DNA of 45,406 nt from Campylobacterales bacterium (GTDB lineage: Bacteria; Campylobacterota; Campylobacteria; Campylobacterales; Nitratiruptoraceae), in assembly GCA_027065825.1 (NCBI GenBank), contig JAMONM010000031.1, positions 1 through 45,406 on the forward strand, written 5' to 3'. Position numbers and translations under genes: made by a program. Position 1 is the first letter of the stretch. Every line of letters begins with the position of its first letter. The notes beneath the pieces were generated by a model. The model was not told the origin of the DNA and did not search any database. It was given only the letters and a program-made list of their open reading frames with translations. Of the stretch, positions 3 through 18,480 are shown in pieces.

Positions 3-314
3 GCCACGCCTGCTGGAACAGCTAAAACTATGCCGGCCGGAGTTACTCAGATCGGAACGGACCTGACAAACGACCACCCGGTATCCATCCAGTATATCGA
101 GGGTAGAGCCAGCCTGAAGCCTACCACTACCACTATTACCAACTGGACCGGAGCTCAGACTATTGCCGATCTGCTCAGAAACGGCAAAGTCGAGTGCGTC
201 AGCTGCCACGATCCTCACCAAGGCGGTACGGGACAGATGTTCCTCAGAAGATACGTTGCCGGCGAAACCGGAAACAAGGGAAGCGCACTCTGTCTGACCT
301 GCCACGACAAATAA
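3..314 (+). CDS. Multiheme cytochrome c, C-terminal fragment
   Basis: The reading frame is open from the left edge, so the 5' part lies outside the window; the methionine at base 30 is internal. The visible 103 residues contain an HPVS-x-QY segment and two CXXCH heme sites, CVSCH (followed by DPH) and CLTCH just before the stop. This layout (HPV, then CxSCHDPH, then LR, then LCLTCH at the C-terminus) matches the second half of the tetraheme module in the downstream cytochromes at 1623 and 5996, so this is probably the end of a third member of that family. It would be secreted and heme-loaded in the periplasm. A strong terminator follows, so it belongs to a transcript upstream of the next gene. 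Total heme number and full length cannot be seen. Confidence 0.85.
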   Translation, partial: ATPAGTAKTMPAGVTQIGTDLTNDHPVSIQYIEGRASLKPTTTTITNWTGAQTIADLLRNGKVECVSCHDPHQGGTGQMFLRRYVAGETGNKGSALCLTCHDK

Positions 315-333: not shown

Positions 334-364
334 GGCACAGCTTTCGGGCTGTGCCTTTTTTTTT
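334..364 (+). terminator. Rho-independent terminator after the partial cytochrome gene
   Basis: A perfect 8-bp stem (GGCACAGC / GCTGTGCC, 334-341 with 348-355) has a 6-nt loop and is followed directly by nine T residues (356-364). It lies 20 bases after the stop codon at 314 and should end the upstream cytochrome transcript. Confidence 0.92.
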
Positions 365-497: not shown

Positions 498-525
498 TTG
501 TAAAAACGTCAAATTAATGTATAAT
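498..525 (+). promoter_or_regulatory. Probable sigma70 promoter of the NHL/cytochrome/barrel operon
   Basis: A perfect TATAAT (520-525) lies 16 bases after TTGTAA (498-503), in an AT-rich gap of 236 bases. An AAAGGAG ribosome site (537-543) sits 7 bases before the TTG start at 551. Two direct TGTCAC hexamers (473-478 and 484-489, 11-bp period) lie just upstream and could bind a regulator. Confidence 0.6.
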
Positions 526-550: not shown

Positions 551-1642
551 TTGATAAAAAGAGCGCTTAGAGGATCAATTTTTGTTTTATACGCCCTACT
601 CTTTTTCGGGTGCGGAGCCCAAAAGCAAGAGAGCGTCAGAATAATCATGCCGCCTCCGCCCGAAGATCCGAAGCTCTTTTACGTCGACAGCTACAGAGGC
701 GAGGCCAGCTTTACGGAAAACAGGGCTTTGGATCTCTTTTTGGGAAAAGAGAGCAAAGGGGTCGGAAAGAACCTCTTTAAACCCTACGGCGTCTACGCCA
801 AAGGGGATATCATCTACGTATCCGACACCGCGATAGGAAACGTTTTCGTAATCGATACCAAAAACAAAAAGGTCACCTTCATCGGCGACAAACCCGCCGG
901 CAAACTTGCCCTTCCGGTAGGAATCGCCATGGACTCAAAGGGCACCCTTTACGTATCCGATGCGAAACTAAAAAAGGTGTTCGGCTACGACGAAAATGGA
1001 AACCTGATTTACGCCCTGGGCAACAAAGGCGAGTTCAGAAGACCATCCGGCATTGCTATCAACAAAAAACTAAACAGACTCTACGTGGTCGATACAAAAT
1101 CGCACAACGTAAAAGTTTACGATCTATCCTCCAATAAGCTTCTGTTCGAGTTCGGAAAGAGGGGAATAAACGACGGGGAGTTCAACTTTCCGACAAACAT
1201 TGCCATCGATCCCAGAAACGGTGACGTGGCCGTTGTAGATACCCAGAACTTCAGAGTACAGATATTCGACTCCGAAGGCGAGTTTCTTAAAAAGTTCGGC
1301 AGACTCGGCGACGCCCCCGGCATGTTCGCCAGACCCAAAGGAATAGGAATAGATTCCGAAGGGCACCTCTACATAGCCGACGCCGCCTTTAACAACGTAC
1401 AGATTTTCGACGACAAGGGCCAGATACTGCTCTTTTTCGGAGGAGCCGGATTCGATCCCGGCAAATTCTATCTGCCCGCAGGCATCTACGTGGACGAAAA
1501 CGACAGGGTATATATCGTGGACTCTTTCAACGCCAGAGTCCAGGTTTATCAGTACGTTAGCGAAAAGTGGAAGCGAGAGCATCCCAAAGAGTACGAGGAA
1601 CTAAAACGTATCGGAAACGAAAATGAAAAGAACGGCGATTAA
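551..1642 (+). CDS. NHL-repeat beta-propeller lipoprotein
   Basis: The N-terminus has a lipoprotein signal with lipobox LFFGC (Cys about residue 21), so the mature protein should be lipid-anchored. Six NHL blades follow from about residue 75 to the end, each with the pattern xP-x-GI-x-D-x-x-x-LYV-x-D-x-x-x-x-x-V-x-x-F/Y (for example around FKPYGVYA, LPVGIAMD, RPSGIAIN, FPTNIAID, RPKGIGID, LPAGIYVD). This predicts a closed six-bladed propeller with no enzyme signature. NHL propellers usually bind protein partners. It heads an operon with a tetraheme cytochrome, a prolyl isomerase and an outer-membrane barrel, so a scaffold or assembly role at the outer membrane is likely but inferred. The TTG start is supported by AAAGGAG 7 bases upstream. 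Its end overlaps the next gene by 20 bases. Confidence 0.85.
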   Translation: MIKRALRGSIFVLYALLFFGCGAQKQESVRIIMPPPPEDPKLFYVDSYRGEASFTENRALDLFLGKESKGVGKNLFKPYGVYAKGDIIYVSDTAIGNVFVIDTKNKKVTFIGDKPAGKLALPVGIAMDSKGTLYVSDAKLKKVFGYDENGNLIYALGNKGEFRRPSGIAINKKLNRLYVVDTKSHNVKVYDLSSNKLLFEFGKRGINDGEFNFPTNIAIDPRNGDVAVVDTQNFRVQIFDSEGEFLKKFGRLGDAPGMFARPKGIGIDSEGHLYIADAAFNNVQIFDDKGQILLFFGGAGFDPGKFYLPAGIYVDENDRVYIVDSFNARVQVYQYVSEKWKREHPKEYEELKRIGNENEKNGD

Positions 1643-2288
1643 TCTAATAATTTCGGTACTGCTGTTTGGTTCGGCCCATGCCGAAGATATGGCGAAAAAG
1701 ATGCAGGAAGCCGCTTCGGTATTTCACACCAAGCACAATCTCCTAAGCGGCATAAAAATGGACAAAGAGAAAAAAGAGGGGCAGCTCTGTATCTGGTGCC
1801 ATATACCGAACTCCACATACTCAAACCTAAAACCCCCCGAATGGAACAGAAATCTAACGGAGAGGTTCAGGTTCTCCCCCTACGGTTTGGAGCAGAATCT
1901 ATCAAAGGCCGAAACGGACTCCGGCCCCGATATAATGGTTAGGGTGTGTCTCACCTGCCACGACGGCATCAACGCGCCAAACATCTCCACCTTTACCCAA
2001 ACCGCCGGCGTCCAAGCCTCGGTCATACCGGAAAACGAAATCTCCCAGGCCCACGGCCACCCGATAGGGGTCAAATACGATCCCCACAGCAAAAGCGGCG
2101 AAAAGGCCTCCCTAAGAGAGGAGAGCTATCCGCTGCAAAACTGGATAGGGGCCCACAGCATAAAGGATCTGATATCCGAAGGGGTAATCAGATGCACCAG
2201 CTGTCACGATCCCCACAGCCCCAACTCCAACTTTTTGCGCACCAACAACGCTATGAGCACTCTATGCAGAGGGTGCCACAACAAGTAG
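1623..2288 (+). CDS. Secreted tetraheme cytochrome c
   Basis: A Sec signal peptide (cleavage near SAHA-ED, about residue 20) is followed by four CXXCH sites: CIWCH, CLTCH (followed by DG), CTSCH (followed by DPH) and CRGCH at the C-terminus. The N-terminal TKHNL, the WN tract after heme 1, the HPIG-x-KYD segment before heme 3 and the LR between hemes 3 and 4 are shared with the first part of the large cytochrome at 5996 and the fragment at 3-314. At about 200 mature residues with four hemes it is the size and motif class of the small tetraheme cytochromes known to polymerise into extracellular filaments in Geobacter and some archaea. Filament formation here is inference. It could instead be the periplasmic donor to the barrel encoded two genes later. 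It overlaps the propeller gene by 20 bases, so it is co-translated. Confidence 0.9.
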   Translation: MKRTAINLIISVLLFGSAHAEDMAKKMQEAASVFHTKHNLLSGIKMDKEKKEGQLCIWCHIPNSTYSNLKPPEWNRNLTERFRFSPYGLEQNLSKAETDSGPDIMVRVCLTCHDGINAPNISTFTQTAGVQASVIPENEISQAHGHPIGVKYDPHSKSGEKASLREESYPLQNWIGAHSIKDLISEGVIRCTSCHDPHSPNSNFLRTNNAMSTLCRGCHNK

Positions 2289-2303
2289 AAAGGTTTGATC
2301 GCT

Positions 2304-3242
2304 ATGATGTTAAGGATACTATTTTTATACGCTTTTTTCGCCGCTTTGCTCTTTGGAGCGAAAGACCCAAATAAAACCGTGGCGATCGTCAACGGCTACA
2401 AGATAACCCAAAAAGAGCTCGACAGACAGATAGATACCCTCGTTCCCAGAAACTTTATCCACGCCAACGTCACGCAGGAAAAGAGAGACTCCCTGGCTCC
2501 CGAAGCTCTGGAAGCTCTGATAGAAAGAAGGGTGCTGATCGACTACGCAAAAAAGAGAGGCTACAAAATAAGCGACAAGGAGCTGAACAAAAGAGTAAAG
2601 CAGTATATAAAGGCTTTCGGTTCCAAAAAGAATCTGACCATGAGGCTAAAACAGTCGGGGCTGAGTTTCGAAGAGTTCGAAAAAGCCCTCAGAGGCGATA
2701 TGCTGCTGGAGAAGCTGTACGAAAAAGAGGTCAAAACCGACTTTAGCGAAAAGGATCTAAAAGAGTACTACGAAAAAAACAGATTCAAATTCAAGCTACC
2801 CCCCAAACTAAAACTGAAAGTGATCTACATCAGAAACGACCCCACCGATCCAAAAGGTGGCGAAAAGGCCAAAAAAAGAGCTATGGAAGTCATGGAAAAA
2901 CTCAAAAAAGGCGAGAAGTTCGAAGATCTGGCCAGAAAGTACTCAAACGACCTATCCAGAATCAAAGGCGGCGATCTCGGTTTTGTTCACAAAGGGATGC
3001 TGGACGCCAAAGTGGAAGACGCCGCGTTTAAACTGAAAAAGGGAGAAATCAGCGATCTGATAGAAACCACGAAAGGCTTTTTCATAATCAAGCTCGAAGA
3101 GATCTCGCCGGAAAAGCAGCTAAAGTTCGAAGAGGTCAAGGAGAAGCTAAAAAGAGAGCTAAAGACCAACAGGGAAAACAAAAAGAAAAAAGAGATTCTA
3201 AAACGTGCTAAAGAGGAATCCAAAATAGAAATTTTAATATAA
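2304..3242 (+). CDS. PpiC/SurA-type periplasmic peptidyl-prolyl isomerase
   Basis: A signal peptide is followed by a SurA/PrsA-like N-terminal helical chaperone region (about residues 25-165, beginning VAIVNGYKITQKELD) and one parvulin (rotamase) domain (about 170-270) with KYSNDLSRIKGGDLGFV and the GEISDLIET-x-x-GFFIIKL end motif. The C-terminal 40 residues are a charged helix. This class helps fold secreted and outer-membrane proteins. Lying between a tetraheme cytochrome and a beta-barrel gene, it is probably a dedicated chaperone for one or both. I chose the ATG at 2304 because AGAAAGG (2287-2293) lies about 10 bases before it; the frame also allows TTG at 2295, which would be too close to that site. 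The general SurA of the cell is not necessarily this protein. Confidence 0.88.
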   Translation: MMLRILFLYAFFAALLFGAKDPNKTVAIVNGYKITQKELDRQIDTLVPRNFIHANVTQEKRDSLAPEALEALIERRVLIDYAKKRGYKISDKELNKRVKQYIKAFGSKKNLTMRLKQSGLSFEEFEKALRGDMLLEKLYEKEVKTDFSEKDLKEYYEKNRFKFKLPPKLKLKVIYIRNDPTDPKGGEKAKKRAMEVMEKLKKGEKFEDLARKYSNDLSRIKGGDLGFVHKGMLDAKVEDAAFKLKKGEISDLIETTKGFFIIKLEEISPEKQLKFEEVKEKLKRELKTNRENKKKKEILKRAKEESKIEILI

Positions 3243-3252
3243 CGGTGTCGGA

Positions 3253-4986
3253 ATGGGAGTTTTAAAAAGAGCTGTTTCTATATCTTTGGCGCTGTCGGTG
3301 ATAAACCTCAACGCGGAGGTATACACCAGAGGCCTATACGGAAAACTCGAATACGTCTTTATGCAAGACAGCATTAAAGACAGCTACAACGAAACAAAAA
3401 GAAAATCGATCGTCCAAAACTACGAGCTGGGATACGAGAGCTTTATATACAGTCCCTACCTGCTCGTATACGACATCTCGGGAGGATGGCTAATAGACGA
3501 CTCCACAACCGATATCAGCGGCGAATCGGGCGACTACAGCACCAACAGAAACGTGGAGACCACAAACTACAGGGCGTATCTGCATTTTATAAAGTACAGC
3601 AAATACCCCTTTACCGTATACAAGGAAAAAATCGACAACCCTATCTGGACCACCGAACCCAACAGAGCGGCACTGACCACGTACAAAACCGACTCTCAGG
3701 GCATAACCGGACGTATAAAATCCGATATAGTAAAGGTGGGATACGAAATCCGCGACTACAAGATAGACAGAACCGAATCGTTCGCCGTGGAAAATCAGAA
3801 AAAGAGACGATACGCCCTGACGCTCTCGAAAGAGTTCGACGAAAACCTCACCGCGTATCTGAGCGCCAGCCACGAAAACAGAGACTACTACAGAAACGAC
3901 TGGGGAATAGGGTATACCGATATCTGGAGCGACACCTACGACAGCGTCACCGGTAACGTATCCTGGAAGATCGATCCGGCAAACATGATGACCTTTTTTA
4001 GCAGCTATATGAAAAACAGCTACTTAGAATACCAAGACACCATGGCGACGATAACCTACTCCTATTTTCCGGGAACCAAATTCAGAGCCAACCTATCCGT
4101 TACCGCCGATTCAATGGAGACGGCCGAAGGAACGAACAACTATCTAACGCTCAGCGGAAACAGCAGCTACCAGATTCAAGAGAACTGGAGCACCAACCAG
4201 GTACTGACGCTCTACAACGCCAGCGGCGATACGATAGATATGAGCATGGCCACGCTGACGCTGGGAACCAACTACACAAAAGAGCACTCCGAAACCCTTA
4301 CCTCCAACTACAACGCCAGCGTCACGGCCAGTTCCGAAAAGTACGGCAACGACACCAATTTGACGCTGACCGACAGAACTCTGCTCTCGTACACTCTCGG
4401 AGCCGGCGCTGTGAAAAATTTCCCCGAATCCCACTCTTCGGTAAACGCGGGAGTCACCTTTTATCAGCTCATATCCAGCGCCAACGACTCCTCCAAAAGG
4501 GCCAGTCTATACGGAGGCTACAACAAACGGTTTTTGCAAAATCTATCTTATAGGCTAAAAGCGAGTCTTTTGAGAGACGAAGCCGCCTATTACGATGCGA
4601 CTCTCGACTCCACAACCACCAGAAGCACCAACATAATCGATGTAGACAACATGATCAACTACTGGCGAAACGTGAACTCCAAAGGCAAACTAAACCTCAC
4701 GGCCGGAGCCAAATACACCTCCGGAATATTCAAAACCAGATTCAATCCGTACGCCAACGCCGAGTTTACCTATATGCTCAGAAGAGCCCTGATCCTAAAA
4801 GCGATAGGCAGAGTCTCCAGCGATACCGCCTACGGCACCACCACCTATACCGGCAATCTGGAGATGGTATACTCCATAAGAAAGGTCAGAATCAGCGTCG
4901 GTTCGTACTACTCCTCTCAAACGGGAGGAAGCCCGGGTCAAAAAACCCATACGAACATATATTTTAGAATTATCAGAAGACTCTAA
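3253..4986 (+). CDS. Outer-membrane beta-barrel, putative cytochrome-conduit porin
   Basis: This 577-residue protein has a signal peptide (ending near LNA-EV) and no cysteine in the mature part. The rest is alternating polar/aromatic beta-strands joined by short Thr/Asn/Ser-rich turns and long Asp/Asn/Ser loops, with many Tyr residues at strand ends. This is typical of a 20+ strand outer-membrane barrel of the size of MtrB/PioB- or Geobacter OmbB-type porins. I see no plug or POTRA domain and no specific family motif. Because it sits between a secreted tetraheme cytochrome with its isomerase and a propeller plus a 12-heme cytochrome, I infer that it forms the sheath of a trans-outer-membrane electron conduit or the exit pore for a cytochrome polymer. 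An ordinary porin is the alternative. Confidence 0.75.
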   Translation: MGVLKRAVSISLALSVINLNAEVYTRGLYGKLEYVFMQDSIKDSYNETKRKSIVQNYELGYESFIYSPYLLVYDISGGWLIDDSTTDISGESGDYSTNRNVETTNYRAYLHFIKYSKYPFTVYKEKIDNPIWTTEPNRAALTTYKTDSQGITGRIKSDIVKVGYEIRDYKIDRTESFAVENQKKRRYALTLSKEFDENLTAYLSASHENRDYYRNDWGIGYTDIWSDTYDSVTGNVSWKIDPANMMTFFSSYMKNSYLEYQDTMATITYSYFPGTKFRANLSVTADSMETAEGTNNYLTLSGNSSYQIQENWSTNQVLTLYNASGDTIDMSMATLTLGTNYTKEHSETLTSNYNASVTASSEKYGNDTNLTLTDRTLLSYTLGAGAVKNFPESHSSVNAGVTFYQLISSANDSSKRASLYGGYNKRFLQNLSYRLKASLLRDEAAYYDATLDSTTTRSTNIIDVDNMINYWRNVNSKGKLNLTAGAKYTSGIFKTRFNPYANAEFTYMLRRALILKAIGRVSSDTAYGTTTYTGNLEMVYSIRKVRISVGSYYSSQTGGSPGQKTHTNIYFRIIRRL

Positions 4987-4997
4987 AGGGGGACGAG

Positions 4998-5999
4998 GTG
5001 AAAAAAGCAGCAATAACGGCGGTCCTGTTTATGGCCGTTTCGTTGACGGCCCAGAGCGGCCCGGTATGGCCCCAACCGCCCGAAAAAGCGCGCATAGCGT
5101 ACGTAAAGTCTATCTCCAACGCGCAGGATCTGGGTATCAAAAAAGGCTTTTTCGCAAAGCTGTGGGACTTTATCGCCGGCAGCGAAGAGAAAAAGCTGAT
5201 AAAACCCTTCGGCGTACACCACGACGGAAGCAGACTCTACGTAACCGATATAGGGGCCAGAGCGGTTTTCATATTCGACGAAAAGAGAAAGAGTCTAAAA
5301 AGCATAGAGCACTCCACCAGATTCAGATTCCTCTCTCCGATCGACGTGGTTACGGACAGGGATCGTAATATCTACGTTACCGACTCCACGCTAAATTACG
5401 TCTATAAATTCAACAGAAACGGAAAATTTATAAAAAAGTTCGGCAACGACATCCTAAAAAGAGCCACGGCCATATCCTACAACGAAAAAAAGAACCTTTT
5501 AGTCGTAACCGACACTCTGGCCGGCGATCTTAAAATATTCTCCACAGAGGGTAAATTCGTAGGATTTATCGGCAAACCTGGAACCAAAGAGGGCGAGTTC
5601 AACAGACCTACGTTTACCGCCTACGACGACGAGGGCTACCTGTACGTCAGCGACACTCTCAATCACAGAGTGGAGATATTCGATCCCGAGGGGAAATTCT
5701 ATAAAAGTTTCGGCAAACTGGGCAATACCGTAGGAACATTCTCGAACCCCAGAGGCATAGCCGTAGACAAAAACAGAAACATCTACGTGGTAGACACCCT
5801 TTTTCATTCGGTGCAGATCTTCAACGAAAACGGCGATATTCTGCTCGCCTTTGGCACCTACGGTAAAAACAGCGGCGAATTTGCGGTTCCAGAGGATATA
5901 ACCATCACAAAAGATGGTAAAATTTATATTACAGACTCTTATAACATGAGGATTCAGGTATTCCAGATCCTCGACTATGTTCAAGGAGGCAAAAAATGA
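4998..5999 (+). CDS. Secreted NHL-repeat beta-propeller protein
   Basis: A signal peptide (MKKAAITAVLFMAVSLTAQS) is followed by VWPQPPEKARIAYV, the usual lead-in to secreted NHL propellers, and six blades from about residue 72 to 325 (KPFGVHHD, SPIDVVTD, RATAISYN, RPTFTAYD, NPRGIAVD, VPEDITIT, each followed by a YVTD/YVSD-type strand). It is paralogous to the lipoprotein at 551 but lacks a lipobox cysteine, so it should be soluble in the periplasm or exported. The GTG start is preceded by an AAAGGGGG ribosome site 5 bases upstream. Its stop overlaps the ATG of the next cytochrome gene (ATGA), indicating translational coupling and a shared role. Confidence 0.85.
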   Translation: MKKAAITAVLFMAVSLTAQSGPVWPQPPEKARIAYVKSISNAQDLGIKKGFFAKLWDFIAGSEEKKLIKPFGVHHDGSRLYVTDIGARAVFIFDEKRKSLKSIEHSTRFRFLSPIDVVTDRDRNIYVTDSTLNYVYKFNRNGKFIKKFGNDILKRATAISYNEKKNLLVVTDTLAGDLKIFSTEGKFVGFIGKPGTKEGEFNRPTFTAYDDEGYLYVSDTLNHRVEIFDPEGKFYKSFGKLGNTVGTFSNPRGIAVDKNRNIYVVDTLFHSVQIFNENGDILLAFGTYGKNSGEFAVPEDITITKDGKIYITDSYNMRIQVFQILDYVQGGKK

Positions 6000-8125
6000 A
6001 AAGGTTCCACCTATGGGCTTTTGGTATCGCGACGCTGCTTAGTGCCGCCTCCGCAGGAACGATTTTGAACACTAAACACAATCTATCCGTTACCGGCCCC
6101 GGCACCATAAAGGCCACTACCGAAACAGAAGTTTGCGTATTTTGCCATATCCCCCACAACGCCAGACCGGGAAAACCTCTTTGGAACAGAGAGATGCCGC
6201 AAAGCGCATACATCATGTACGAGAGCGAATACCTAAAAAGGACAAACTATCCGCTTCCCGCCGATCTGGGAATAACCGAAGGCACTCCGGGATCTCTCTC
6301 CAGGCAGTGTCTAAGCTGTCATGACGGAACGGTGGCGGTAGGCGGAGTCTATATCGTCAGAGGAAGCATCCTGGGCAATACCTTAATTGATATGATCGGA
6401 GTAAACGCCGACGGCACCATGCCCACCACGGCCGAGGGTTTTATAGGAACCGATCTATCCATCCACCATCCGGTGGGAATCGAGTACGATCCCACTAACG
6501 TAAAAAATTTTGACGTGGGCAGCAAAACCATAGAGCTAAAAACGGTTCCCGACGCCCCTTTGAAACTCTATACCTACAACGGAAAGCAGTACGTGGAGTG
6601 CTCCTCCTGCCACGATCCGCATATAGAGAACATGAAGTTCCTCAGAGTCACCTCGGGGGCCAACCACGGAGAGAACGTAAAAAACACCTGTATCTCCTGT
6701 CACGACAAAAATCAGGCCCCTTGGCCCACAACCCACGAGGTGGCCGGTATGCCCTATACCGACCAGGGCGTAAAGGACAGATACAACAACGGCGGCGACG
6801 TGTCGGTAGCTACGCTTTATTGCGTCAATTGCCACACCCCGCACAACGGGCTCGGCAAACCGTATCTGCTTAGGCAGGTTGAACAAAACAGCTGCTACAT
6901 GGGAGCCGCCTCCTCCAGAAGCACCGCCCCCTGCCACGGAACCGGAACCACCTGGGCAGGAAACGACATAGAGTCGGTTCTAAACCGTATCTACTCGCAC
7001 CCTACAAACAGAATCGACGGGGTCCATACCAACTTTGACACCCTCTACGGCTACGGAGCGACGGTAACCGATCCAGCCGCCAGCCACAGCGTAAAATGGG
7101 CTGATTCCAAACACGCAGAATGTATGGATTGCCACAACCAGCACAAACTGGGCTCCAACAACCATATCGGCACTCAGACCGCCAGCGCCACCAAATGGTA
7201 CCCGGACACCCCATCAAACGCCGTTTCCGACGTTCTGCGGGGCGTGCAGGGAATAGAGCCCACCTGGCCTGCGATCTGGACGCAGCCTACCACTTTTCAG
7301 ACGCTGGCCGAATCCACAAAAGAGTATCAGATCTGTCTAAAATGCCACTCCTACTGGGCCTTGGGACCTGTACTGGCTCCGGCGGCCGGAGAGATAGCCA
7401 CCGCCGCCACTGACAACTGGATAGATTCCGAAAACGTCAGGGCCACCGACCAGGCGATGGAGTTTAACCCAAACAACAAATCGGCCCACCCGGTGGTTAT
7501 GAGCCTAAACAACATGCCGGGTTCCTACGCTCCAAGAGGTCTCGATACCTGGGGAGTTACCGACGTTATGTGGTTCCCCTGGAACCAAAATCTTGGGAAC
7601 CAGACCATGTACTGCTCAGACTGCCACGGAGCCGACAACGAGGCCAGCGGCGATCCAAAGGGACCTCACGGATCCAGTTTCAGATATATGCTAAAGGGGC
7701 CCAACAAATATTGGCCCACAAAACCGGACGGCACGCTTTTTACCACCGCCGACATCCAGGCCGACGGAACGGTGCCGGATCTATTCTGCGCCAACTGCCA
7801 CAACCTGAACTATCCGCACAAACAGTGGGGATGGCGAATGAGCAGATGGACCTTCGCCTGCGTGGAGTGCCACGTGGCGGTTCCTCACGGATCGCCGGTA
7901 TCCAGGCTGATAGGGTACACCAACTTTCCCGAACCCTACAACTACAACCACAACGGCGTCTTACAGCTGAGAATCAAAGGGTATAGAAAGGCCAATCCCT
8001 CCACGAACATTAACGTAAGCAACGTATACGCCCCATCCTGCGGCGGCGGCAGATGCCACCGAAGAAACGCCCAGGGATACGCCGACGGAGGTGCCGGATA
8101 TGATCCGGTCACTCCTTTGCCTTAG
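5996..8125 (+). CDS. Large secreted multiheme cytochrome c (10 CXXCH plus CX12CH and CX4CH)
   Basis: A signal peptide (cleavage near residue 20, after SAASA) precedes ten CXXCH sites: CVFCH, CLSCH, CSSCH, CISCH, CVNCH, CMDCH, CLKCH, CSDCH, CANCH and CVECH. Two further sites are atypical: Cys300-X12-Cys313-His314, and Cys682-X4-Cys687-His688 (CGGGRCH) near the C-terminus. The CX12CH lies where the fourth site of a second module would be expected (after CVNCHTPHNG and YLLR), so it probably binds heme, giving up to 12. The first about 240 residues (TKHNL, CVFCHIPHN, CLSCHDG, HPVGIEYD, CSSCHDPH, CISCH) are homologous to the tetraheme protein at 1623. No membrane anchor is seen. It is coupled to the propeller gene by an ATGA overlap. 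It is a likely extracellular or conduit electron carrier; which one is not decided by sequence. Confidence 0.9.
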   Translation: MKRFHLWAFGIATLLSAASAGTILNTKHNLSVTGPGTIKATTETEVCVFCHIPHNARPGKPLWNREMPQSAYIMYESEYLKRTNYPLPADLGITEGTPGSLSRQCLSCHDGTVAVGGVYIVRGSILGNTLIDMIGVNADGTMPTTAEGFIGTDLSIHHPVGIEYDPTNVKNFDVGSKTIELKTVPDAPLKLYTYNGKQYVECSSCHDPHIENMKFLRVTSGANHGENVKNTCISCHDKNQAPWPTTHEVAGMPYTDQGVKDRYNNGGDVSVATLYCVNCHTPHNGLGKPYLLRQVEQNSCYMGAASSRSTAPCHGTGTTWAGNDIESVLNRIYSHPTNRIDGVHTNFDTLYGYGATVTDPAASHSVKWADSKHAECMDCHNQHKLGSNNHIGTQTASATKWYPDTPSNAVSDVLRGVQGIEPTWPAIWTQPTTFQTLAESTKEYQICLKCHSYWALGPVLAPAAGEIATAATDNWIDSENVRATDQAMEFNPNNKSAHPVVMSLNNMPGSYAPRGLDTWGVTDVMWFPWNQNLGNQTMYCSDCHGADNEASGDPKGPHGSSFRYMLKGPNKYWPTKPDGTLFTTADIQADGTVPDLFCANCHNLNYPHKQWGWRMSRWTFACVECHVAVPHGSPVSRLIGYTNFPEPYNYNHNGVLQLRIKGYRKANPSTNINVSNVYAPSCGGGRCHRRNAQGYADGGAGYDPVTPLP

Positions 8126-8603
8126 TCTGACGCTGTTTCTGCTGGGCGAAGCCGCACAAGCTTCGCCCAAAAAGGAGCTGCTAGAGTGCATAAAGCGCTA
8201 TAACCGAAATCTGATCGAAGCGGCCGCCGATCCCTCGTTTACCGAAAATTTCGACAACCGTCGGCGCCTTGAGGAGTGCGCCACGAAAAAGGTGGCCCAA
8301 AAGCTATATATTTGGATAGCGTCCTGGCACGAAAACCGCCTCTATATGGAGGCTAAACTCGAAAAACTGGAGCTGATCCGCCTAAATCGCTCGCAAGACT
8401 CGGCAATCGCCGAAACGAAAGAGATCTGGATATACAGATACAAAAAAATCGACTCAGAAGGAAGAGTCAGCGCAGCGCATCCCCCCTCCAAAATGGAGTA
8501 TCTCGTCAGATACACCCTAAAAAAGTTTCCCAAAGGGTGGAAGATCGCCCAAATCAAGATTCTTCACGAAAAGGAGACTCCCCTGCCCTCCGACACATCT
8601 TGA
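8100..8603 (+). CDS. Small secreted protein of unknown function in the cytochrome operon
   Basis: 167 residues with a clear signal peptide (MIRSLLCLSLTLFLLGEAAQA, then SPKKEL). The ATG at 8100 is chosen because GGAGG (8087-8091) lies 8 bases upstream; the gene overlaps the end of the cytochrome by 26 bases. The mature part is an alpha+beta protein: helices to about residue 95, then strands IWIYRYKKID and YLVRYTLKK followed by GWKIAQIKIL. That ending resembles the last strands of NTF2-like/IMS-type domains, but I do not recognise a family with confidence. Two cysteines are present and no CXXCH. Its place between the large cytochrome and ccsBA suggests a part in maturation or assembly of the conduit. 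Confidence 0.75.
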   Translation: MIRSLLCLSLTLFLLGEAAQASPKKELLECIKRYNRNLIEAAADPSFTENFDNRRRLEECATKKVAQKLYIWIASWHENRLYMEAKLEKLELIRLNRSQDSAIAETKEIWIYRYKKIDSEGRVSAAHPPSKMEYLVRYTLKKFPKGWKIAQIKILHEKETPLPSDTS

Positions 8604-8647
8604 AAATTTAAAACATTATTAAATTTGACTTATGAAAGAGGGTTTTA

Positions 8648-8676
8648 TTGCTAAATCCCCCAAATAGTTATATAGT
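8648..8676 (+). promoter_or_regulatory. Possible promoter of ccsBA
   Basis: TTGCTA (8648-8653) and TATAGT (8671-8676) are spaced by 17 bases in the 103-base AT-rich gap before ccsBA. No terminator is visible between 8603 and here, so ccsBA may also be reached by read-through from the cytochrome operon. Confidence 0.35.
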
Positions 8677-8706
8677 GTGCGAAGTTTATCGAAAAAAAGG
8701 AGCGTT

Positions 8707-11700
8707 ATGAACATTTTGAAAACCGCATGGGAGATACTGATCTCGATGAAGACCATGGTGGTTTTAACGGTTATTTTCGCATTCTCGATAGCCGTTGCCA
8801 CATTTATCGAAAACGACTTCGGAACCGAAACGGCCTGGGCACTGGTTTTTGCGGCCAAATGGTTCGAGGTACTCCAGATTCTTTTGGGAATCAACCTGCT
8901 GGCCAACATTATCCGATTCAAACTATACAGACCCAAAAAACTGCCGGCTTTCATTTTCCACGTAGGTTTTCTATTCATTCTGATAGGTTCGGGTCTAACC
9001 AGATATTACGGATACGAAGGGATCTTGCATATCAGAGAGGGGCAGAGCGAAAACAGAATGCTCTCTGCCGACGCCTTTTTGCAGATTGACGCCAAATCGG
9101 GCGGCGAAGAGGTTAAATTTGAAAAGAAACTCTTTCTATCCGCCATAGGTGGAAACGATTTTACCGAAAGCTTCGAGATCAACGGCAAAAAGGTAACCGT
9201 CAGATTCAAAGACTACATCAAAAACGCTCAAAAGGTGGCGGTAGCCGATCCTAACGGCAAACCTATCGTCTCGTTGACGGTGGCTACGCCTTCTGGTCCA
9301 GAGGAGTATATTTTAGAATACGGACAATATAGCGATCTGGGACCCTTTGCGATAGTTTTCGGTCCCAAAGAGCCCATCGAAATTAAAAAGCCGTATATAT
9401 ACATCTATACCAAAAACGGCAAGTTTTATTTCAAATCCAATACGGATCTGGGCTATTTCAAAATGGCAACCCAGGAAAAGGGGCTGTTTCAAAAAAACAG
9501 GGAACACCCCTTTGAGACAAAGATGCTCTATATCCTAAACGGCATACAGATCGTACCGAAAGAGGCGCTTTTAAAGGGTGTAAAAAAAGTGGTCAAACGT
9601 GAGGAAAACTCCCCTATGCAGATGAAGGGAATGAAACTGTCGGCTCTGGTAGTGGAGGTAGAGGTAGACGGAGAAAAAAAGGACGTGGCCCTGATGGGAA
9701 TGGGACGAAGATTCAGGGGATTTAGCGAACACGTGAGTCTAAACGGAGTCGATATGGATATAGAGTGGGGTTCCAAACAGCTGGTTTTGCCCTTTTATCT
9801 GCATCTGAAAGATTTCGTGATCGAAAAGTACCCGGGCTCTATGAGTCCCTCCTCGTACGAAAGCCACGTAATACTGATAGACGAAAAGAACGGAGTGAGA
9901 ATGCCGTATAAAATCTATATGAACCACACCCTCGAATACGGAGGATTCAAGTTTTTCCAGTCCAGTTACGATCAGGACGAAATGGGAACGATTTTGTCGG
10001 TCAACCACGATCCAGGCAAATGGCCCACATACATCGGCTACATACTGCTCGGTATAGGATTTTTGCTAAATCTCCTAAACCCCCACAGCAGATTCGGACA
10101 GCTGGCCAGAACCAGATATATTGCGCCCGCGTCCAAAGCCGCAACCGTTGCGGCGGCGCTTTTGGCCCTGCTTTCTGCCGGAACTCTGCAGGCGGCGCCT
10201 CATCAGCATCAGATAGATATGGAGCAGATCATAAGCACCGTCAAAAAGATAGATAAAAAACACGCCGACCATTTCGGAACCATACTTCTGCAAGGCCCGG
10301 ACGGAAGGATCAAACCGATAGATTCGGCCGCCATAGATATCCTAAACAAAGTGCACGGCTCGAACGAGATGTGGGGTCTAAACCACAACCAGATCGTTTT
10401 GGGTATGACGGCAAAACCTACATACTGGCAAAGAATCAAGATGATAAAAGTCTCCCATCCAGGAGTCAAAAAACTGCTTCAGATACCGGAAAACGAAAAA
10501 TATTTCGCATTCATCGACATCTTTGACAAACACGGAAACTACAAGCTACAAAAAGCGGTCGAGGAGGCCAGCAGAAAGAGACCGGCCGCCAGGAGCAAAC
10601 TGGACAAAGAGCTTTTAAAGGTGGACGAGAGAATCAATATAGCCTATATGGTCTACACCGGCGAGTTCATGAGAATATTCCCTCTAATAGGAGACCCCAA
10701 CAACACCTGGTATCCGCCGGCCTTTGCGGTCAAAAACTTTCCGGCGAATCAGGCCCGCGAAATCCAGCGAATACTTCAAAAAAACTTTGAGGGATTAAAC
10801 AGGGGTATTCAAACCGGCGACTGGAGCATGGCGGACGAGGCGGTAGAGGAGATAAAGGCCTACCAGAAAAAGTACGGCGCGGCGATCATCCCTCCGCAAT
10901 CGAGAATAGAGGCAGAAATACTCTATAACAGGCTCGATCTCTTTAACCGGCTTGTGCCGGTCTATCTGCTATCCGGTCTTGTGCTTTTGATGTTCATCTT
11001 CGCAAGATTGATGAAGCCGGATCTGAGCCTGCAAAAACCTACGAAAATAGTGGTATTTATCCTCTTTTTGGCCTTTTTGGCGCATACCTTCGCCCTCGGG
11101 CTTAGATGGTACGTGGCTGGTCACGCTCCGTGGAGCAACGGTTACGAAGCGATGCTATATATCTCCTGGTCGATCATTCTGGCCGGTATTTTGTTTGCCA
11201 GACAGTCCGAATTCGCCGTCTCCTCCACGGCCATATTCGCCGGTATAACCCTATTCGTAGCACATCTGAGCTGGCTCGATCCGCAGATCACCACGATGGT
11301 TCCGGTTCTCAAATCCTACTGGCTGACTATACACGTCTCGGTAATTACGGCCAGCTACGGATTCTTGGGACTTAGCGCGCTGCTGGGATTCATAGCCTTG
11401 ATACTGTTTATACTCCTTGGTTTCGCAAAGGACGAAAGCAGACGAAAGCAGATCGTTCTCAACATCAAAGAGGCGAACAGAATAAACGAGATGTCCATGA
11501 TAGTCGGGCTCTCTCTTTTGACTCTCGGAAACTTCCTGGGAGGCGTATGGGCAAACGAGAGCTGGGGAAGATACTGGGGATGGGACCCCAAGGAGACCTG
11601 GGCTCTCGTTACAATTTTGGTCTATACGGCTCTGCTGCATCTTAGATTCGTTCCCAAACTCTGGAACGCCTTTAATTTTGCGGCGCTGTCCGTCGTTTCA

Positions 11701-11898
11701 TACAGCTCCGTCATCATGACCTATTTCGGCGTCAACTACTATCTTTCGGGCCTGCACTCATACGCGGCGGGAGATCCGGTTCCTATACCTACCTGGGTAT
11801 ACTACGCCGTGGCGATCGTGGCCGCCATAATTTTGCTCGCCTTCAGAAACAACCACATCTACGAATCCCTCAAGAAACTGGCCGTCAAAGCCGGGTAA
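8707..11898 (+). CDS. ccsBA: Fused cytochrome c synthase CcsBA (System II heme lyase)
   Basis: This 1063-residue inner-membrane protein is a fusion of ResB/CcsB (about 1-470, with four membrane segments and a large periplasmic loop) and ResC/CcsA (about 740-1063). It exports heme and joins it to CXXCH cysteines in the periplasm. The tryptophan-rich WWD signature (ANESWGRYWGWDPKETW) is at about residues 945-965. The conserved histidines are visible: in IFHVGFLF near 83, in VAGHAPWSNGYEA near 807, in TIHVSVITASYG near 872 and in GLHSYAAGDP near 1015. I chose the ATG at 8707 because of AAGGAG 5 bases upstream; the frame extends 10 codons further without a ribosome site. Such fusions are typical of Campylobacterota. 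Beside a gene with CX12CH it may be a motif-specialised synthase, like the Wolinella paralogues. Confidence 0.95.
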   Translation: MNILKTAWEILISMKTMVVLTVIFAFSIAVATFIENDFGTETAWALVFAAKWFEVLQILLGINLLANIIRFKLYRPKKLPAFIFHVGFLFILIGSGLTRYYGYEGILHIREGQSENRMLSADAFLQIDAKSGGEEVKFEKKLFLSAIGGNDFTESFEINGKKVTVRFKDYIKNAQKVAVADPNGKPIVSLTVATPSGPEEYILEYGQYSDLGPFAIVFGPKEPIEIKKPYIYIYTKNGKFYFKSNTDLGYFKMATQEKGLFQKNREHPFETKMLYILNGIQIVPKEALLKGVKKVVKREENSPMQMKGMKLSALVVEVEVDGEKKDVALMGMGRRFRGFSEHVSLNGVDMDIEWGSKQLVLPFYLHLKDFVIEKYPGSMSPSSYESHVILIDEKNGVRMPYKIYMNHTLEYGGFKFFQSSYDQDEMGTILSVNHDPGKWPTYIGYILLGIGFLLNLLNPHSRFGQLARTRYIAPASKAATVAAALLALLSAGTLQAAPHQHQIDMEQIISTVKKIDKKHADHFGTILLQGPDGRIKPIDSAAIDILNKVHGSNEMWGLNHNQIVLGMTAKPTYWQRIKMIKVSHPGVKKLLQIPENEKYFAFIDIFDKHGNYKLQKAVEEASRKRPAARSKLDKELLKVDERINIAYMVYTGEFMRIFPLIGDPNNTWYPPAFAVKNFPANQAREIQRILQKNFEGLNRGIQTGDWSMADEAVEEIKAYQKKYGAAIIPPQSRIEAEILYNRLDLFNRLVPVYLLSGLVLLMFIFARLMKPDLSLQKPTKIVVFILFLAFLAHTFALGLRWYVAGHAPWSNGYEAMLYISWSIILAGILFARQSEFAVSSTAIFAGITLFVAHLSWLDPQITTMVPVLKSYWLTIHVSVITASYGFLGLSALLGFIALILFILLGFAKDESRRKQIVLNIKEANRINEMSMIVGLSLLTLGNFLGGVWANESWGRYWGWDPKETWALVTILVYTALLHLRFVPKLWNAFNFAALSVVSYSSVIMTYFGVNYYLSGLHSYAAGDPVPIPTWVYYAVAIVAAIILLAFRNNHIYESLKKLAVKAG

Positions 11899-11930
11899 GC
11901 CGATCGGCTTGCCCGATTATTTATTTTTAT
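11893..11930 (+). terminator. Probable terminator after ccsBA
   Basis: A stem GGGTAAGCC / GGCTTGCCC with a GATC loop (11893-11914, one T-G wobble) overlaps the stop codon and is followed by a T-rich stretch (11918-11930). The T tract is interrupted by A residues, so termination may be partial. Confidence 0.6.
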
Positions 11931-12002: not shown

Positions 12003-12707
12003 ATGAAACTATCCTCTTTAGTAATTTCGGCTCTATTGGTTGCGACCGCCCCTTTGCTGGCCGGAGAGAAGCTGGAGTTCAAAGAGAGACTTATGAAATC
12101 CGCGATCCAAAAGGCTCAAAAGGGGGATCCTAACGCCCAGTTCGCCCTGGGAGAGATGCACTATCTAGGATTCATGGGAGAAAAAAATTACGATGAAGCG
12201 ATAAAATGGTACGAAAAAGCCGCCAGGCAGGGACACGTCAAAGCGATGTTCAATCTAGGCTACATCTATTTTACAGGAAAAGGCGCAAAAAAGGATTACA
12301 AAAAGGCAAAACACTGGTTCGAAAAGGCGGCGGCCGAAGATGATCCCAAAGCGATGAGATATCTAGGGGAGATCTACTATAAAGGTCTGGGAACGGACAA
12401 GGACTACAACAAAGCCTTTTTCTGGTATAAAAAGACCGCGGATATGGGCTATCCGAAAGCTCAATACATAGTAGGCCAGATGTATAAAAGGGGGCTTGGA
12501 ACGAAAAAGGATATTCAAAAGGCTAAATATTACCTCACCAGATCGGCTATGCAGAGCTGTTCAGAGGCGGAGCTGGAGCTGGGCAAAATGTACCTAAGCG
12601 GCGAAGGCGTGCCTAAAGACCCTCAAAAAGCGAAGCAGTATCTCCAAAAAGCCTACAAGGACGGAAAAAGGGAGGCAAAAGAGTATTTAGAGCGGCTGGA
12701 GGATTGA
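12003..12707 (+). CDS. Secreted Sel1-repeat (TPR-like) protein
   Basis: A signal peptide (cleavage near LLA-GEK, about 20) precedes about five Sel1-like repeats of about 36 residues (pattern A-x-x-LG-x-x-Y-x-x-G-x-G-x-x-K-D-Y-x-x-A-x-x-W-x-x-K-A-A), with units starting near NAQFALGEMHYLG, KAMFNLGYIYFTG, KAMRYLGEIYYKG, KAQYIVGQMYKRG and EAELELGKMYLSG. Sel1 repeats form a superhelical scaffold for protein-protein contact. It is a full-length paralogue of the convergent gene at 12708-13454, and both proteins end in LED. Being between two cytochrome clusters it may scaffold periplasmic cytochromes, but that is inference. It has its own promoter and an AAAGGTG ribosome site 7 bases upstream. Confidence 0.85.
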   Translation: MKLSSLVISALLVATAPLLAGEKLEFKERLMKSAIQKAQKGDPNAQFALGEMHYLGFMGEKNYDEAIKWYEKAARQGHVKAMFNLGYIYFTGKGAKKDYKKAKHWFEKAAAEDDPKAMRYLGEIYYKGLGTDKDYNKAFFWYKKTADMGYPKAQYIVGQMYKRGLGTKKDIQKAKYYLTRSAMQSCSEAELELGKMYLSGEGVPKDPQKAKQYLQKAYKDGKREAKEYLERLED

Positions 12708-12719
12708 TCAATCCTCCAG
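12696..12719. repeat. 24-bp perfect palindrome formed by two abutting stop regions
   Basis: The last four codons of the + strand Sel1 gene (CTGGAGGATTGA) and of the minus-strand Sel1 gene are identical, and the two stop codons touch at 12707/12708, giving a 24-bp perfect inverted repeat. Folded as RNA it is a 10-bp stem with a 4-nt loop on either strand. No T tract follows on either side, so it is not a standard intrinsic terminator. Confidence 0.9.
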
Positions 12720-13454
12720 GCCGGGTAGTCTCTCTTTTGGAATTTCGGCTTTCCAACCGTAGCTGTCCATAATCTTTTTAGCCTCTTTATGGCCGTTTAT
12801 ATAGGCCTGACAGATATACTCCTTGGCCTTTTCCATATCTTTTGGAACCCCCTCGCCGGTGAGATACATCCTGCCCAACATATAATCGGCGTCGGCGTGA
12901 CCCTGCTCGGCCGCTTTTTCAAAAAGTTTTGCCGCCTCATTGAAATCCTTTTTCACCCCCTCTCCTCTATAAAACATCATACCGAGCCTATACTGGGCCT
13001 CTGGATACTCTTCGGCGGAGGCTTTTGTATACCAATAAAGAGCCTTTCCGTAGTCCTTGGAAACGCCGATTCCCTCGTAATACATTCTGCCAAGATACAG
13101 CATAGATTTTGGATCGTTCTTCTCGGCCGCTTTTTCAAACCACTTTCTGGCCTTTTGGTAATCTTTCGGCGCGCCCTCGCCGCTGAAATAGATATGTCCC
13201 AGATTGAACGCGGCTTTTACGTGGCCTTTGTCGGCGGCCTCTTCAAAGTATGATATAGATTTGTCGTAATCTTTGTGAACGCCCATTCCCAGATAGTACA
13301 TCTCGCCCAACGCAAAGAGCGCGTTCGGATCTCCCTGTTCGGCCTTTTTCAATACCGAGGCGTAGGCTCTTTTGACGAACTCGCTCTTTTGAGCTAATGC
13401 CGGAGCTACCATCAGGGCTCCTACGGCGGCTATCGAGACCAGTATCTTTTTCAT
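12708..13454 (-). CDS. Secreted Sel1-repeat (TPR-like) protein, last gene of the cytochrome operon
   Basis: A signal peptide (MKKILVSIAAVGALMVAPALA, then QKS) precedes about five Sel1-type repeats (NALFALGEMYYLGMG, KAAFNLGHIYFSGEG, KSMLYLGRMYYEGIG, EAQYRLGMMFYRGEG, DADYMLGRMYLTGEG) and a short C-terminal tail ending LPGLED. It starts 9 bases after the stop of the octaheme cytochrome gene, with AAGGAG upstream, so it is the last member of the NapC/multiheme operon. Its homologue sits head-on at 12003-12707. A scaffold role for the neighbouring cytochromes is plausible; no enzyme motif is present. Confidence 0.87.
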   Translation of the reverse strand: MKKILVSIAAVGALMVAPALAQKSEFVKRAYASVLKKAEQGDPNALFALGEMYYLGMGVHKDYDKSISYFEEAADKGHVKAAFNLGHIYFSGEGAPKDYQKARKWFEKAAEKNDPKSMLYLGRMYYEGIGVSKDYGKALYWYTKASAEEYPEAQYRLGMMFYRGEGVKKDFNEAAKLFEKAAEQGHADADYMLGRMYLTGEGVPKDMEKAKEYICQAYINGHKEAKKIMDSYGWKAEIPKERLPGLED

Positions 13455-13463
13455 TCCCTCTCC

Positions 13464-14498
13464 TTATTTTTTATGACATTTGTTGCACCACAGCATCAAA
13501 CCCTCCCCCATATAGTCTCTTAGCATAAAGCCGTTGTTGGAGACGTGAGGATTGTGGCAGCTCACGCATGTGAGCTCCTCGTTGGGGTTATTGGGAAGTT
13601 TTTTCCCTTTTGTGGGATGACCTCTACTGGAAAAGGTGGTAACCACGTGCGGTTTGCTCTTTTTTTCCGTATGGCACGTGGTACAGAGATACCAGACCTG
13701 ATATCTCAAAAACTTCTTGTCGTTTCCGCCGTGCGGATTGTGGCACTTGTTGCATCTGCCGTCGTCAACCGGCTCGTGTCTGTACTTTTCCTTTTTGAAT
13801 CTCTTCTCGAACTTTTCGTGGCATTCAAAGCAGGTTTTTGCTATGGGATCGGGATAGATAAATTTGGACGCTCCTTTGAACTTTTCGTTGAATCTGCCGC
13901 TTTGACCGTTATGGCAACTGGTGGCGCAGAGCCAGTTGGCCGCCGGAGCGTGCATGTACTTTTCAAACATTACCGATTTGTGGCAGATAAAGCAGTTGGA
14001 CTCCTCTATATCTTCGAAGGCCACGCCCTTGACCTCGTTTACGCTCATATCGTGGCAATCCGCGCAGGGCGTTTCGAATCTCTCGTTATGAAAATAGGTT
14101 TTATGGTATTCTTTGGGCGGATATCTGAACTTTTTTTGCAAGATGCTCTTTTGATAGAGGGTCAAACTCTTTTCCAGAACTTTTCTATCCTCTTTGTCGA
14201 ACCCCAGCACTTCCACCCTGTTCTCCCCCAGCATCAGTTCAACGGTCAGACAGACGAACTCCTCGTGAATATTGGTTTTGGGCGTTATCTTTCTGTTGGC
14301 CGCGGGCCGATCGTTTATTATGATAGCCACTCTATCGAGGCTGTTACCCTTTCTGACCACGATTGTGGCGTATCTGTTGTCGTAAACGTTCCTATCAACC
14401 GGCCAGACCAGATCGCTGCTCCAGACCAGCTTTTCGCCGCCTTGAGGGTTGGCATACAGAAAAATCGTAAAAATCGCGAAAACGAGCGCTAATCTCAC
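13464..14498 (-). CDS. Secreted octaheme cytochrome c with N-terminal Ig-like domain
   Basis: The product (344 residues from the GTG at 14498) has a signal peptide (RLALVFAIFTIFLYA), a beta-sandwich-like region (about 20-115, ending in GENRVEVLGFDKED) and a heme domain with eight sites: CADCH, CFICH, CATSCH (a CX3CH; first Cys codon at 13926-13928), CFECH, CNKCH, CTTCH, CVSCH and CNKCH at the extreme C-terminus. I prefer the GTG at 14498 because it overlaps the TGA of the previous gene as GTGA and has GGGGGAAG just upstream. An in-frame ATG at 14531 would add 11 residues and overlap the neighbour by 37 bases. It is a paralogue of the gene at 14495-15565 and likely a periplasmic or exported electron carrier fed by the NapC-type dehydrogenase of this operon. 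Confidence 0.85.
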   Translation of the reverse strand: MRLALVFAIFTIFLYANPQGGEKLVWSSDLVWPVDRNVYDNRYATIVVRKGNSLDRVAIIINDRPAANRKITPKTNIHEEFVCLTVELMLGENRVEVLGFDKEDRKVLEKSLTLYQKSILQKKFRYPPKEYHKTYFHNERFETPCADCHDMSVNEVKGVAFEDIEESNCFICHKSVMFEKYMHAPAANWLCATSCHNGQSGRFNEKFKGASKFIYPDPIAKTCFECHEKFEKRFKKEKYRHEPVDDGRCNKCHNPHGGNDKKFLRYQVWYLCTTCHTEKKSKPHVVTTFSSRGHPTKGKKLPNNPNEELTCVSCHNPHVSNNGFMLRDYMGEGLMLWCNKCHKK

Positions 14499-15565: not shown

Positions 15566-15573
15566 AGTGCCCC

Positions 15574-17118: not shown

Positions 17119-17132
17119 TCACCCACCTTGTA

Positions 17133-17636
17133 TCAATATTCGAACTCTCCTACCGGACACTCATGCGCGGTAACCTTCTTTCTGATTAGATGCTCTTTCG
17201 GTGCGTGATGCGGATTGTGACACTTGTTACAGTTTATGTTCTCTCTGGGCTCGGTAACCGGTACGTGACACTCAAAACATAGCTCTTGAACGGTAGGAGT
17301 CAAAATGGCCGCCGGCTTGCTCCTTTTAGGGGCGTGGCAAACCTGGCACGCTCCCATTATGAAAGGGGGATGCTTATATTTTTGAACCGGCTTAAAAGCC
17401 TGGGGCAGCTCGGCTATCTCGATCGTCTTCGTACTGCCCGTATGGTTTTTTATGTAATCAACGCTGATACTGGGATCCATATAGATATGGTGCGATCCCT
17501 CCATAATGTTTTCCATTATGTTTTTGTTAATCTTGACAAGTTTGCCGAAATTTACGCCGCTGACGGCAAGACCCACAAGGGCCAGCAGCAATACTCCCGC
17601 TCCGATCAGGGCCAGTTTACTTTTATTCTCTTTCAT
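17133..17636 (-). CDS. Membrane-anchored triheme cytochrome c
   Basis: 167 residues: an N-terminal membrane anchor (LALIGAGVLLLALVGLAVSG), a linker, then CQVCH, CFECH and CNKCH (followed by NPHHAP). The anchor, the KINKNIMENIMEGSHH stretch and the LPQAFKPVQKYKHPPF-IMGAC lead-in all have counterparts in the dodecaheme protein encoded next, so this looks like a short tandem duplicate of its first quarter. The fourth site is reduced to a lone Cys (HECPVGEFEY, stop). The ATG at 17636 has GAGGGG 7-8 bases upstream. An in-frame GTG at 17651 overlaps the previous stop and is a less likely start. It is probably an intermediate carrier between quinol dehydrogenase and larger cytochromes. Confidence 0.85.
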   Translation of the reverse strand: MKENKSKLALIGAGVLLLALVGLAVSGVNFGKLVKINKNIMENIMEGSHHIYMDPSISVDYIKNHTGSTKTIEIAELPQAFKPVQKYKHPPFIMGACQVCHAPKRSKPAAILTPTVQELCFECHVPVTEPRENINCNKCHNPHHAPKEHLIRKKVTAHECPVGEFEY

Positions 17637-17647
17637 CTTGACGCCCC

Positions 17648-18433: not shown

Positions 18434-18480
18434 AGGGTTTACCTCTTTATTAAAATGTCCTAAAATTAGCGACACGATTG

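Follow-up and report, generated by a model that had tools for sequence, protein, structure and literature searches.

Gene content and organization of the locus

We describe a gene cluster for multiheme cytochromes and an outer-membrane beta-barrel on a 45,406-nucleotide stretch of DNA (the window), which makes up the entire contig C31 of a genome of 1.61 Mb in 116 contigs with an estimated completeness of 99% (L-, G-, and C-numbers denote compared DNA stretches, genomes, and contigs, respectively). A tight operon of eight genes spans positions 551 to 11898 on the plus strand, with intergenic distances of -20, 6, 10, 11, -4, -35, and 73 bases from 5' to 3', and encodes a propeller lipoprotein (NHL1), a tetraheme cytochrome (cytS), a PpiC-type prolyl isomerase, the barrel, a second propeller (NHL2), a large cytochrome (cytL), a small secreted protein, and a heme lyase (Table 1). 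All eight open reading frames listed in a preliminary description of this DNA were recovered at the same positions, with Pfam supporting the NHL, PpiC, paired-CXXCH, and ResB plus CcsB assignments. Its naming of the host as a campylobacterium is likewise supported by the relatives, as the organism is a deep-branching Campylobacter relative whose named relatives are Hydrogenimonas and other Campylobacterales metagenome-assembled genomes. The best promoter-like match and the two best terminator-like matches bracket 551-11898, and the heme lyase gene is therefore probably part of the operon.

Table 1. Features of the operon and its surroundings in the window
Positions	Strand	Feature	Evidence or remarks
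3-314	+	OmcE-like tetraheme cytochrome, C-terminal 103 residues	Cut by contig edge; CVSCH; CLTCHDK then stop
334-355	+	Terminator-like hairpin	9-pair stem and T run; between upstream cytochrome and operon; consensus match only
498-525	+	Promoter-like site	TTGTAA-16-TATAAT, 10/12; best plus-strand match; precedes operon; consensus match only
551-1642	+	NHL1, NHL beta-propeller lipoprotein	NHL E 7e-34; lipobox-like LFFGC
1623-2288	+	cytS, divergent OmcE-like tetraheme paralogue	Four CXXCH, exactly 8 Cys
2295-3242	+	Periplasmic PpiC/SurA-type prolyl isomerase	Rotamase_3 E 9e-24, SurA_N_3 E 2e-17 (Pfam)
3253-4986	+	Outer-membrane beta-barrel, orphan family, 577 residues	Predicted 28 strands (AlphaFold2)
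4998-5999	+	NHL2, second secreted NHL propeller	NHL E 4e-28
5996-8125	+	cytL, 12-heme cytochrome: OmcE-type module and 8-heme extension	24 Cys in 12 motifs
6056-6709	+	OmcE-type tetraheme module of cytL (residues 21-238)	Ends at CISCHDK, where free tetrahemes end
6710-8122	+	C-terminal extension of cytL, 471 residues	8 heme motifs
8091-8603	+	Small secreted protein	ARC6-like_IMS match weak, below cutoff
8677-11898	+	Fused ResB-CcsB (CcsBA) heme lyase	Cytochrom_C_asm E 3e-42, ResB E 3e-23
11892-11915		Terminator-like match	Operon 3' end; with 334-355 the two best in the window; consensus match only
13464-18475	-	Convergent relay cluster	Five multiheme cytochromes
13464-14531	-	7-heme cytochrome	Heme motif count
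14495-15565	-	7-heme cytochrome	Heme motif count
15574-17118	-	11-heme protein	Heme motif count
17133-17651	-	3-heme protein	Heme motif count
17648-18475	-	NapC/NirT tetraheme	Cytochrom_NNT E 1e-27
18890-19627		UbiE menaquinone methyltransferase	After relay cluster

OmcE-type tetraheme cytochromes

Three kinds of cytochrome at the locus are homologous over the full tetraheme chain to PDB entry 7TFS, the OmcE filament subunit of the tetraheme nanowire of Geobacter sulfurreducens. In phmmer searches against the PDB, matches to 7TFS and to its sequence relative 9YUQ were obtained for an intact relative of the truncated upstream protein (L043:5153-5929, 77% identical to the product of 3-314; E 3e-23 and 1e-21, respectively), for cytS (E 4e-13 and 2e-15), and for residues 12-237 of cytL (E 2e-28 and 3e-16). 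The preliminary description had rightly listed a tetraheme gene and had missed this homology, with which the locus reads as one for a conduit and a nanowire rather than for a conduit alone. In the same genome, contig C97 breaks off after the N-terminal half of a gene nearly identical to the one at 3-314, and although the ends of C97 and C31 show no exact overlap, the two contigs are likely adjacent in the genome.

OmcE and the tetrahemes have four histidines in common outside the CXXCH motifs, namely, in a KH near the N terminus, in a CHxxH after heme 1, in an HP between hemes 2 and 3, and in a CHxxH after heme 3. Three of these are kept in 16/16 tetrahemes of our alignment A3 and the remaining one in 15/16, with the N-terminal KH histidine being invariant (some flags for a missing KH in the tree set stem from the trimming rule). 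At the second extra histidine, a candidate heme ligand, the CHxPH of all other A3 relatives reads CHIPN in the window's cytS, asparagine having taken the place of the histidine; the outlying paralogue ECN_L128 also lacks this histidine after heme 1. The cytL module keeps all four. In OmcE, one heme is ligated by a histidine of the next subunit (PMC12307469). In a maximum likelihood tree (arbitrarily rooted and with long deep branches), the free tetrahemes, cytS, and the cytL module form three separate groups with high support, cytS being a clade of its own and the free tetrahemes lying on the side of OmcE and 9YUQ, which indicates that these paralogues differentiated before the families split.

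A 12-heme cytochrome built on an OmcE-type module

The large cytochrome cytL carries ten CXXCH motifs plus a CX12CH (C300/C313-H314; 6893-6937) and a CX4CH (C682/C687-H688; 8039-8059), which together use exactly its 24 cysteines. Twelve hemes, the upper limit in the preliminary description, are thus well supported by the sequence. All 14 full-length homologues examined have 24 or 25 cysteines, and 13 of them have the CX12CH after the fourth heme, L075 being without that spacing. The last motif varies among homologues (CXXCH in L046 and L122, CX9CH in L052), in keeping with a real heme site. Long-loop heme motifs have a precedent in the OmcZ nanowire (PMC9473688). With respect to localization, cytL has a plain signal peptide without a lipobox. 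Its extension has no PDB relative by sequence search, and a search of plasmid records for cytL found nothing. Because the OmcE module is extended exactly where the free subunits end, we propose from this fusion architecture that cytL may be a terminal adapter joining a filament to the conduit.

A second 12-heme cytL copy was observed in genome G420, where it stands in a row (L122:8595-15388 on contig C41) with an OmcZ homologue, a subtilase, and a PpiC isomerase. The octaheme of this row matches OmcZ (8D9M) with an E value of 1e-58, including the OmcZ C-terminal domain, and carries C-terminal IPT/TIG domains. The set of subtilase and PpiC has been described for OmcZ assembly (PMC11208441, PMC12307469), and judged by its genes the row represents a nanowire operon of the OmcZ type in a genome of the Campylobacterota; no such operon was found in the window's own genome. 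The occurrence of cytL beside two unrelated kinds of nanowire genes supports a nanowire-related role. In a related genome, three OmcZ-like octahemes stand in tandem with a subtilase and a PpiC after them (L152:5752-15210; G046:C182). Further cytL copies lie directly after large putative lipoproteins of 893 and 461 residues (L149:705-5398 and L150:3634-7033).

A wide barrel of an orphan family

The AlphaFold2 model of the barrel, built from nine sequences, has 28 strands, no plug domain, a mean pLDDT (predicted local distance difference test score) of 81, and a pTM (predicted template modeling score) of 0.61. By the textbook formula, its backbone radius would be about 25 Å, compared to 23 to 24 Å for 26 strands and about 14 to 15 Å for a 16-strand porin, and in the model the barrel is wide enough for a heme wire. 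The 28 predicted strands therefore argue against a general porin, and the narrow porin that the preliminary description had named beforehand as a refutation of its conduit reading is ruled out on modeling. At the sequence level, no significant match to the barrel was found in Pfam, NCBIfam, or the PDB, the few matches being noise, and 10 barrels of the family matched no Pfam or NCBIfam family, MtrB/PioB included. A weak match to a 1033-residue barrel (G038/L013, E 2e-4) was rejected as a family member. Foldseek returned large barrels in general, with MtrB (6r2q_B) second by E value and best by query TM-score (0.41); this comparison of the predicted fold shows a wide barrel, not membership in the MtrB family.

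A wide predicted barrel and a multiheme partner, with NHL2-cytL following the barrel gene in most loci, would also fit an ordinary porin-cytochrome conduit without filaments, in which cytL would reach partly through the barrel and the OmcE-like tetrahemes would act as monomeric periplasmic or surface shuttles, since homology to OmcE does not prove polymerization. We consider this rather unlikely, given that the tetrahemes have retained OmcE's four histidines outside the CXXCH motifs, one of which is supplied by the neighboring subunit in OmcE (PMC12307469), and that up to three tetraheme genes per locus and the fused module point to a polymer system.

Accessory proteins and heme lyase

The relatives of NHL1 likewise have an N-terminal hydrophobic stretch ending in GC or AC, and the gene for the small secreted protein is conserved between cytL or NHL2 and ccsBA. 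In Wolinella, a dedicated CcsA-type lyase serves an unusual heme motif, and by analogy the CcsBA of the operon is perhaps dedicated to the unusual CX12CH heme of cytL.

The gene content could also be read as a multiheme reductase, periplasmic or on the surface, that acts on a soluble acceptor (a compound of sulfur, selenium, or nitrogen), the barrel then being a substrate channel of the kind suggested for Geobacter ExtI. The extHIJKLMNOPQS cytochrome-barrel cluster has indeed been linked to selenite and tellurite reduction (PMC5877670), and the phylum of the carriers is sulfur and hydrogen oxidizing. Against this, Pfam and NCBIfam reveal no catalytic subunit family among the operon proteins, whose cytochromes are of the electron-transfer paired-CXXCH type, and ExtI is a protein of 45 kDa with about 12 predicted strands (PMC5877670), making such a function very improbable.

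Conservation and distribution in the Campylobacterota

The order NHL1-(cytS)-PpiC-barrel-NHL2-cytL-small protein-lyase was found in L043, L044, L045, L046, L052, L075, L076, L077, and L078, and part of the way on contigs that end early (L047, L048, L051, L066, and L070), and is conserved in four families. The barrel gene of the relatives thus adjoins cytochromes, and the second refutation foreseen in the preliminary description, homologues lying apart from cytochromes, is not borne out. Between families, barrel identity drops to 23 to 32%, whereas cytL stays at about 50% or more; cytS is limited to part of the window's family and the Hydrogenimonas group. Upstream of the locus, relatives carry one or two more OmcE-like tetrahemes, often with 8- and 11-heme cytochromes. 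On contig C97, a dCache sensor and a histidine kinase lie between an 8-heme and a tetraheme cytochrome (L053:1409-4372); the pair is also present upstream in L043 and is a candidate regulator of the locus.

Profile searches in 397 genomes of the phylum detected the barrel in 10, the tetraheme in 11, and cytL in 11 genomes; the sets coincide in 10 genomes, the eleventh being G451, whose assembly is fragmented and shows the same neighbors on its pieces. In G072, the cytL profile matched only a tetraheme-type protein, and the locus contig stops where cytL would start. For the co-occurrence of barrel, OmcE-like tetraheme, and cytL, Fisher's test gives P = 5e-19 (uncorrected for common descent). 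By profile search, all three are absent from G002, which belongs to the window's genus, and the carriers are patchily distributed over the four families, suggesting that the locus is gained or lost as a unit.

The linkage to cytL shows exceptions: L049 has NHL1-PpiC-barrel-lyase without adjacent NHL2-cytL-small protein, a trio that stands together elsewhere in the same genome (L148), and in L050 cytL is absent at the locus and present on another contig. The arrangement in L049 would suit a barrel that is not heme lined and serves as an export or assembly channel for nanowire subunits, with cytL and the propellers taking part in secretion or anchoring, as would the accessory nonredox parts (PpiC, propellers, and small secreted protein) and the absence of a plug domain from the 28-strand model. 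This is possible, if doubtful: almost every genome with the barrel also has cytL, whether or not the two are linked, and nanowire secretion in Geobacter is tied to pseudopilus-like pili, which is a different route (PMC12307469).

A probable quinol-dehydrogenase cluster next to the operon

A cluster of five multiheme cytochromes headed by a NapC/NirT tetraheme converges on the operon from the opposite strand; the preliminary description had left it unlinked to the conduit. The NapC/NirT family oxidizes quinol, and in L049, L050, and L078 the relay cluster likewise lies close to the barrel locus. On this basis, a complete path from quinol to the surface can be drawn, with the cluster as the likely quinol-oxidizing feeder of the operon. 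The same family bears on whether the conduit might run inwards and oxidize extracellular donors such as Fe(II), metal sulfides, or partner cells: quinol oxidation, its normal function, favors outward flow. Multiheme conduits such as Mtr do sustain bidirectional transport (PMC9473688) and the carriers are probably lithoautotrophs; we regard inward use as improbable.

Between the operon and the relay cluster, two Sel1-repeat proteins face each other (12003-13454) and are kept in several relatives. Elsewhere in the genome, on contig C13, lies a separate 376-residue pentaheme of the Cytochrome_C554 family (L055:1359-2489, E 1e-9); a genome search with PF13435 (Cytochrome_C554) yielded only this cytochrome, which is unrelated to the locus.

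Proposed function

On balance, we lean toward a system of the OmcE-nanowire type that spans the envelope and serves extracellular electron transfer, in which a quinol-to-surface conduit is coupled to OmcE-type filaments with cytL as the adapter. In such a system, menaquinol would be oxidized by the NapC/NirT-headed cluster, as its family suggests, and multiheme cytochromes of the periplasm would pass the electrons on to the 28-strand barrel with cytL as its 12-heme partner. Width and gene order suggest that a cytochrome inside the barrel could carry electrons across the outer membrane. On the surface, the OmcE-like tetrahemes may polymerize head to tail as a filament, as their homology and conserved histidines would allow, with cytL presumably positioned as terminal adapter between filament and conduit. 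PpiC may assist in the folding of the barrel and of the cytochromes with their many loops, NHL1 (the lipoprotein) and NHL2 may dock or cap the complex, and the neighboring CcsBA would attach the hemes. The conduit reading of the preliminary description is thereby upheld in part: barrel width and gene order speak for it, and electron transport itself is still deduced.

Several points weigh against the proposed system. The barrel model has a pTM of 0.61, and its strand count could be off by one hairpin (two strands); it resembles MtrB no more than large barrels resemble one another. The AlphaFold model of cytL has a pLDDT of 28.5 and lends no structural support to the adapter idea, and the occurrence of cytL beside an OmcZ-type operon is not predicted for an OmcE-specific adapter. 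Furthermore, the NHL1-barrel block also occurs without cytL beside it (L049 and L050), filaments and extracellular electron transfer in the carrier organisms are predictions from gene content, and what cytochrome filaments do in the cell is itself a matter of dispute (PMC11077965).

More specifically, and tentatively, the operon may be a dedicated nanowire base, in which the barrel, propellers, and PpiC would form a platform and cytL would be the terminal subunit, with its 8-heme extension running through or on the barrel and giving a continuous heme chain from the periplasm to the filament. If true, the locus would hold the first anchor to be identified that links a cytochrome nanowire with a conduit in the membrane, and this in a phylum for which the literature searched describes no nanowires. 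The assembly, anchoring, and membrane wiring of cytochrome nanowires are stated to be unresolved (PMC12307469, section 5.4), and the operon may show how OmcE-type wires attach to the cell. As OmcE-type subunits, a cytochrome with a fused OmcE module, a wide barrel, and chaperones share one conserved order, the locus points to candidate genes for the anchor and the platform and renders nanowire attachment testable. It also offers a possible molecular explanation for metal-oxide respiration in the Campylobacterota.

Comparison with known systems

The open-access literature that we searched holds no description of OmcE-type nanowires in the Campylobacterota, with some of the tetrahemes possibly included in the broad survey by Baquero (2023, Cell). 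A review lists the phylum among genome-predicted electroautotrophs (PMC12575090), and a study on cable bacteria reported only incomplete known conduits in a Sulfurimonas, suggested an undetected porin, and cited a Sulfurimonas using Mn(IV) oxide (PMC11748539).

With respect to porin-cytochrome conduits, the likeness to Mtr, Pio, and Omb/Oma/Omc drawn in the preliminary description holds only as an analogy, as the barrel falls in no MtrB/PioB or other curated family and cytL is without a lipobox. The locus resembles MtrCAB and PioAB in having a large barrel and a 10- to 12-heme cytochrome, and among PDB folds MtrB ranks first by query TM-score; the locus differs in the missing MtrB/PioB family match, in the strand number (28 predicted versus 26 in MtrB), and in that cytL is not an MtrA/DmsE member (TIGR03508, 35.8 bits against a cutoff of 192.2). 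As in the Geobacter Omb-Oma-Omc (Pcc) systems, the barrel adjoins multiheme cytochromes. Unlike in those systems, there is no outer-surface dodecaheme lipoprotein, cytL having 12 motifs with its plain signal peptide, and propellers, PpiC, and heme lyase are added.

The gene content resembles that of the OetABI/OetI-type conduit, known from sulfate-reducing partners of anaerobic methanotrophic archaea and from Geobacter (PMC10553843, PMC5539420), in which a six-bladed propeller, a prolyl isomerase, multihemes, and a barrel are clustered and nanowire-type cytochromes are associated. The same clustering of propeller, isomerase, and barrel with cytochromes is found here. The core cytochromes of OetABI, however, have 16 and 26 hemes, with OetB as a lipoprotein, whereas cytL as the largest in the operon has 12 heme motifs and lacks a lipobox, and the wire is of the OmcE type here in contrast to OmcS/OmcX with OetABI. 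The locus is thus not MtrCAB and not strictly OetABI.

With respect to nanowire systems, the second cytL of G420 adjoins exactly the set of the OmcZ operon (OmcZ, the OzpA subtilase, and a prolyl isomerase), with OmcZ being an octaheme whose fold is unrelated to that of the OmcE-type cytochromes described here. OmcE (7TFS) and 9YUQ are alike to these cytochromes in full-length homology, four CXXCH, the conserved extra histidines, and a C-terminal CxxCHxK. Compared to OmcE, the putative filament system described here has three paralogue classes, one of them fused to an 8-heme extension, and its locus adds a barrel, propellers, and PpiC.

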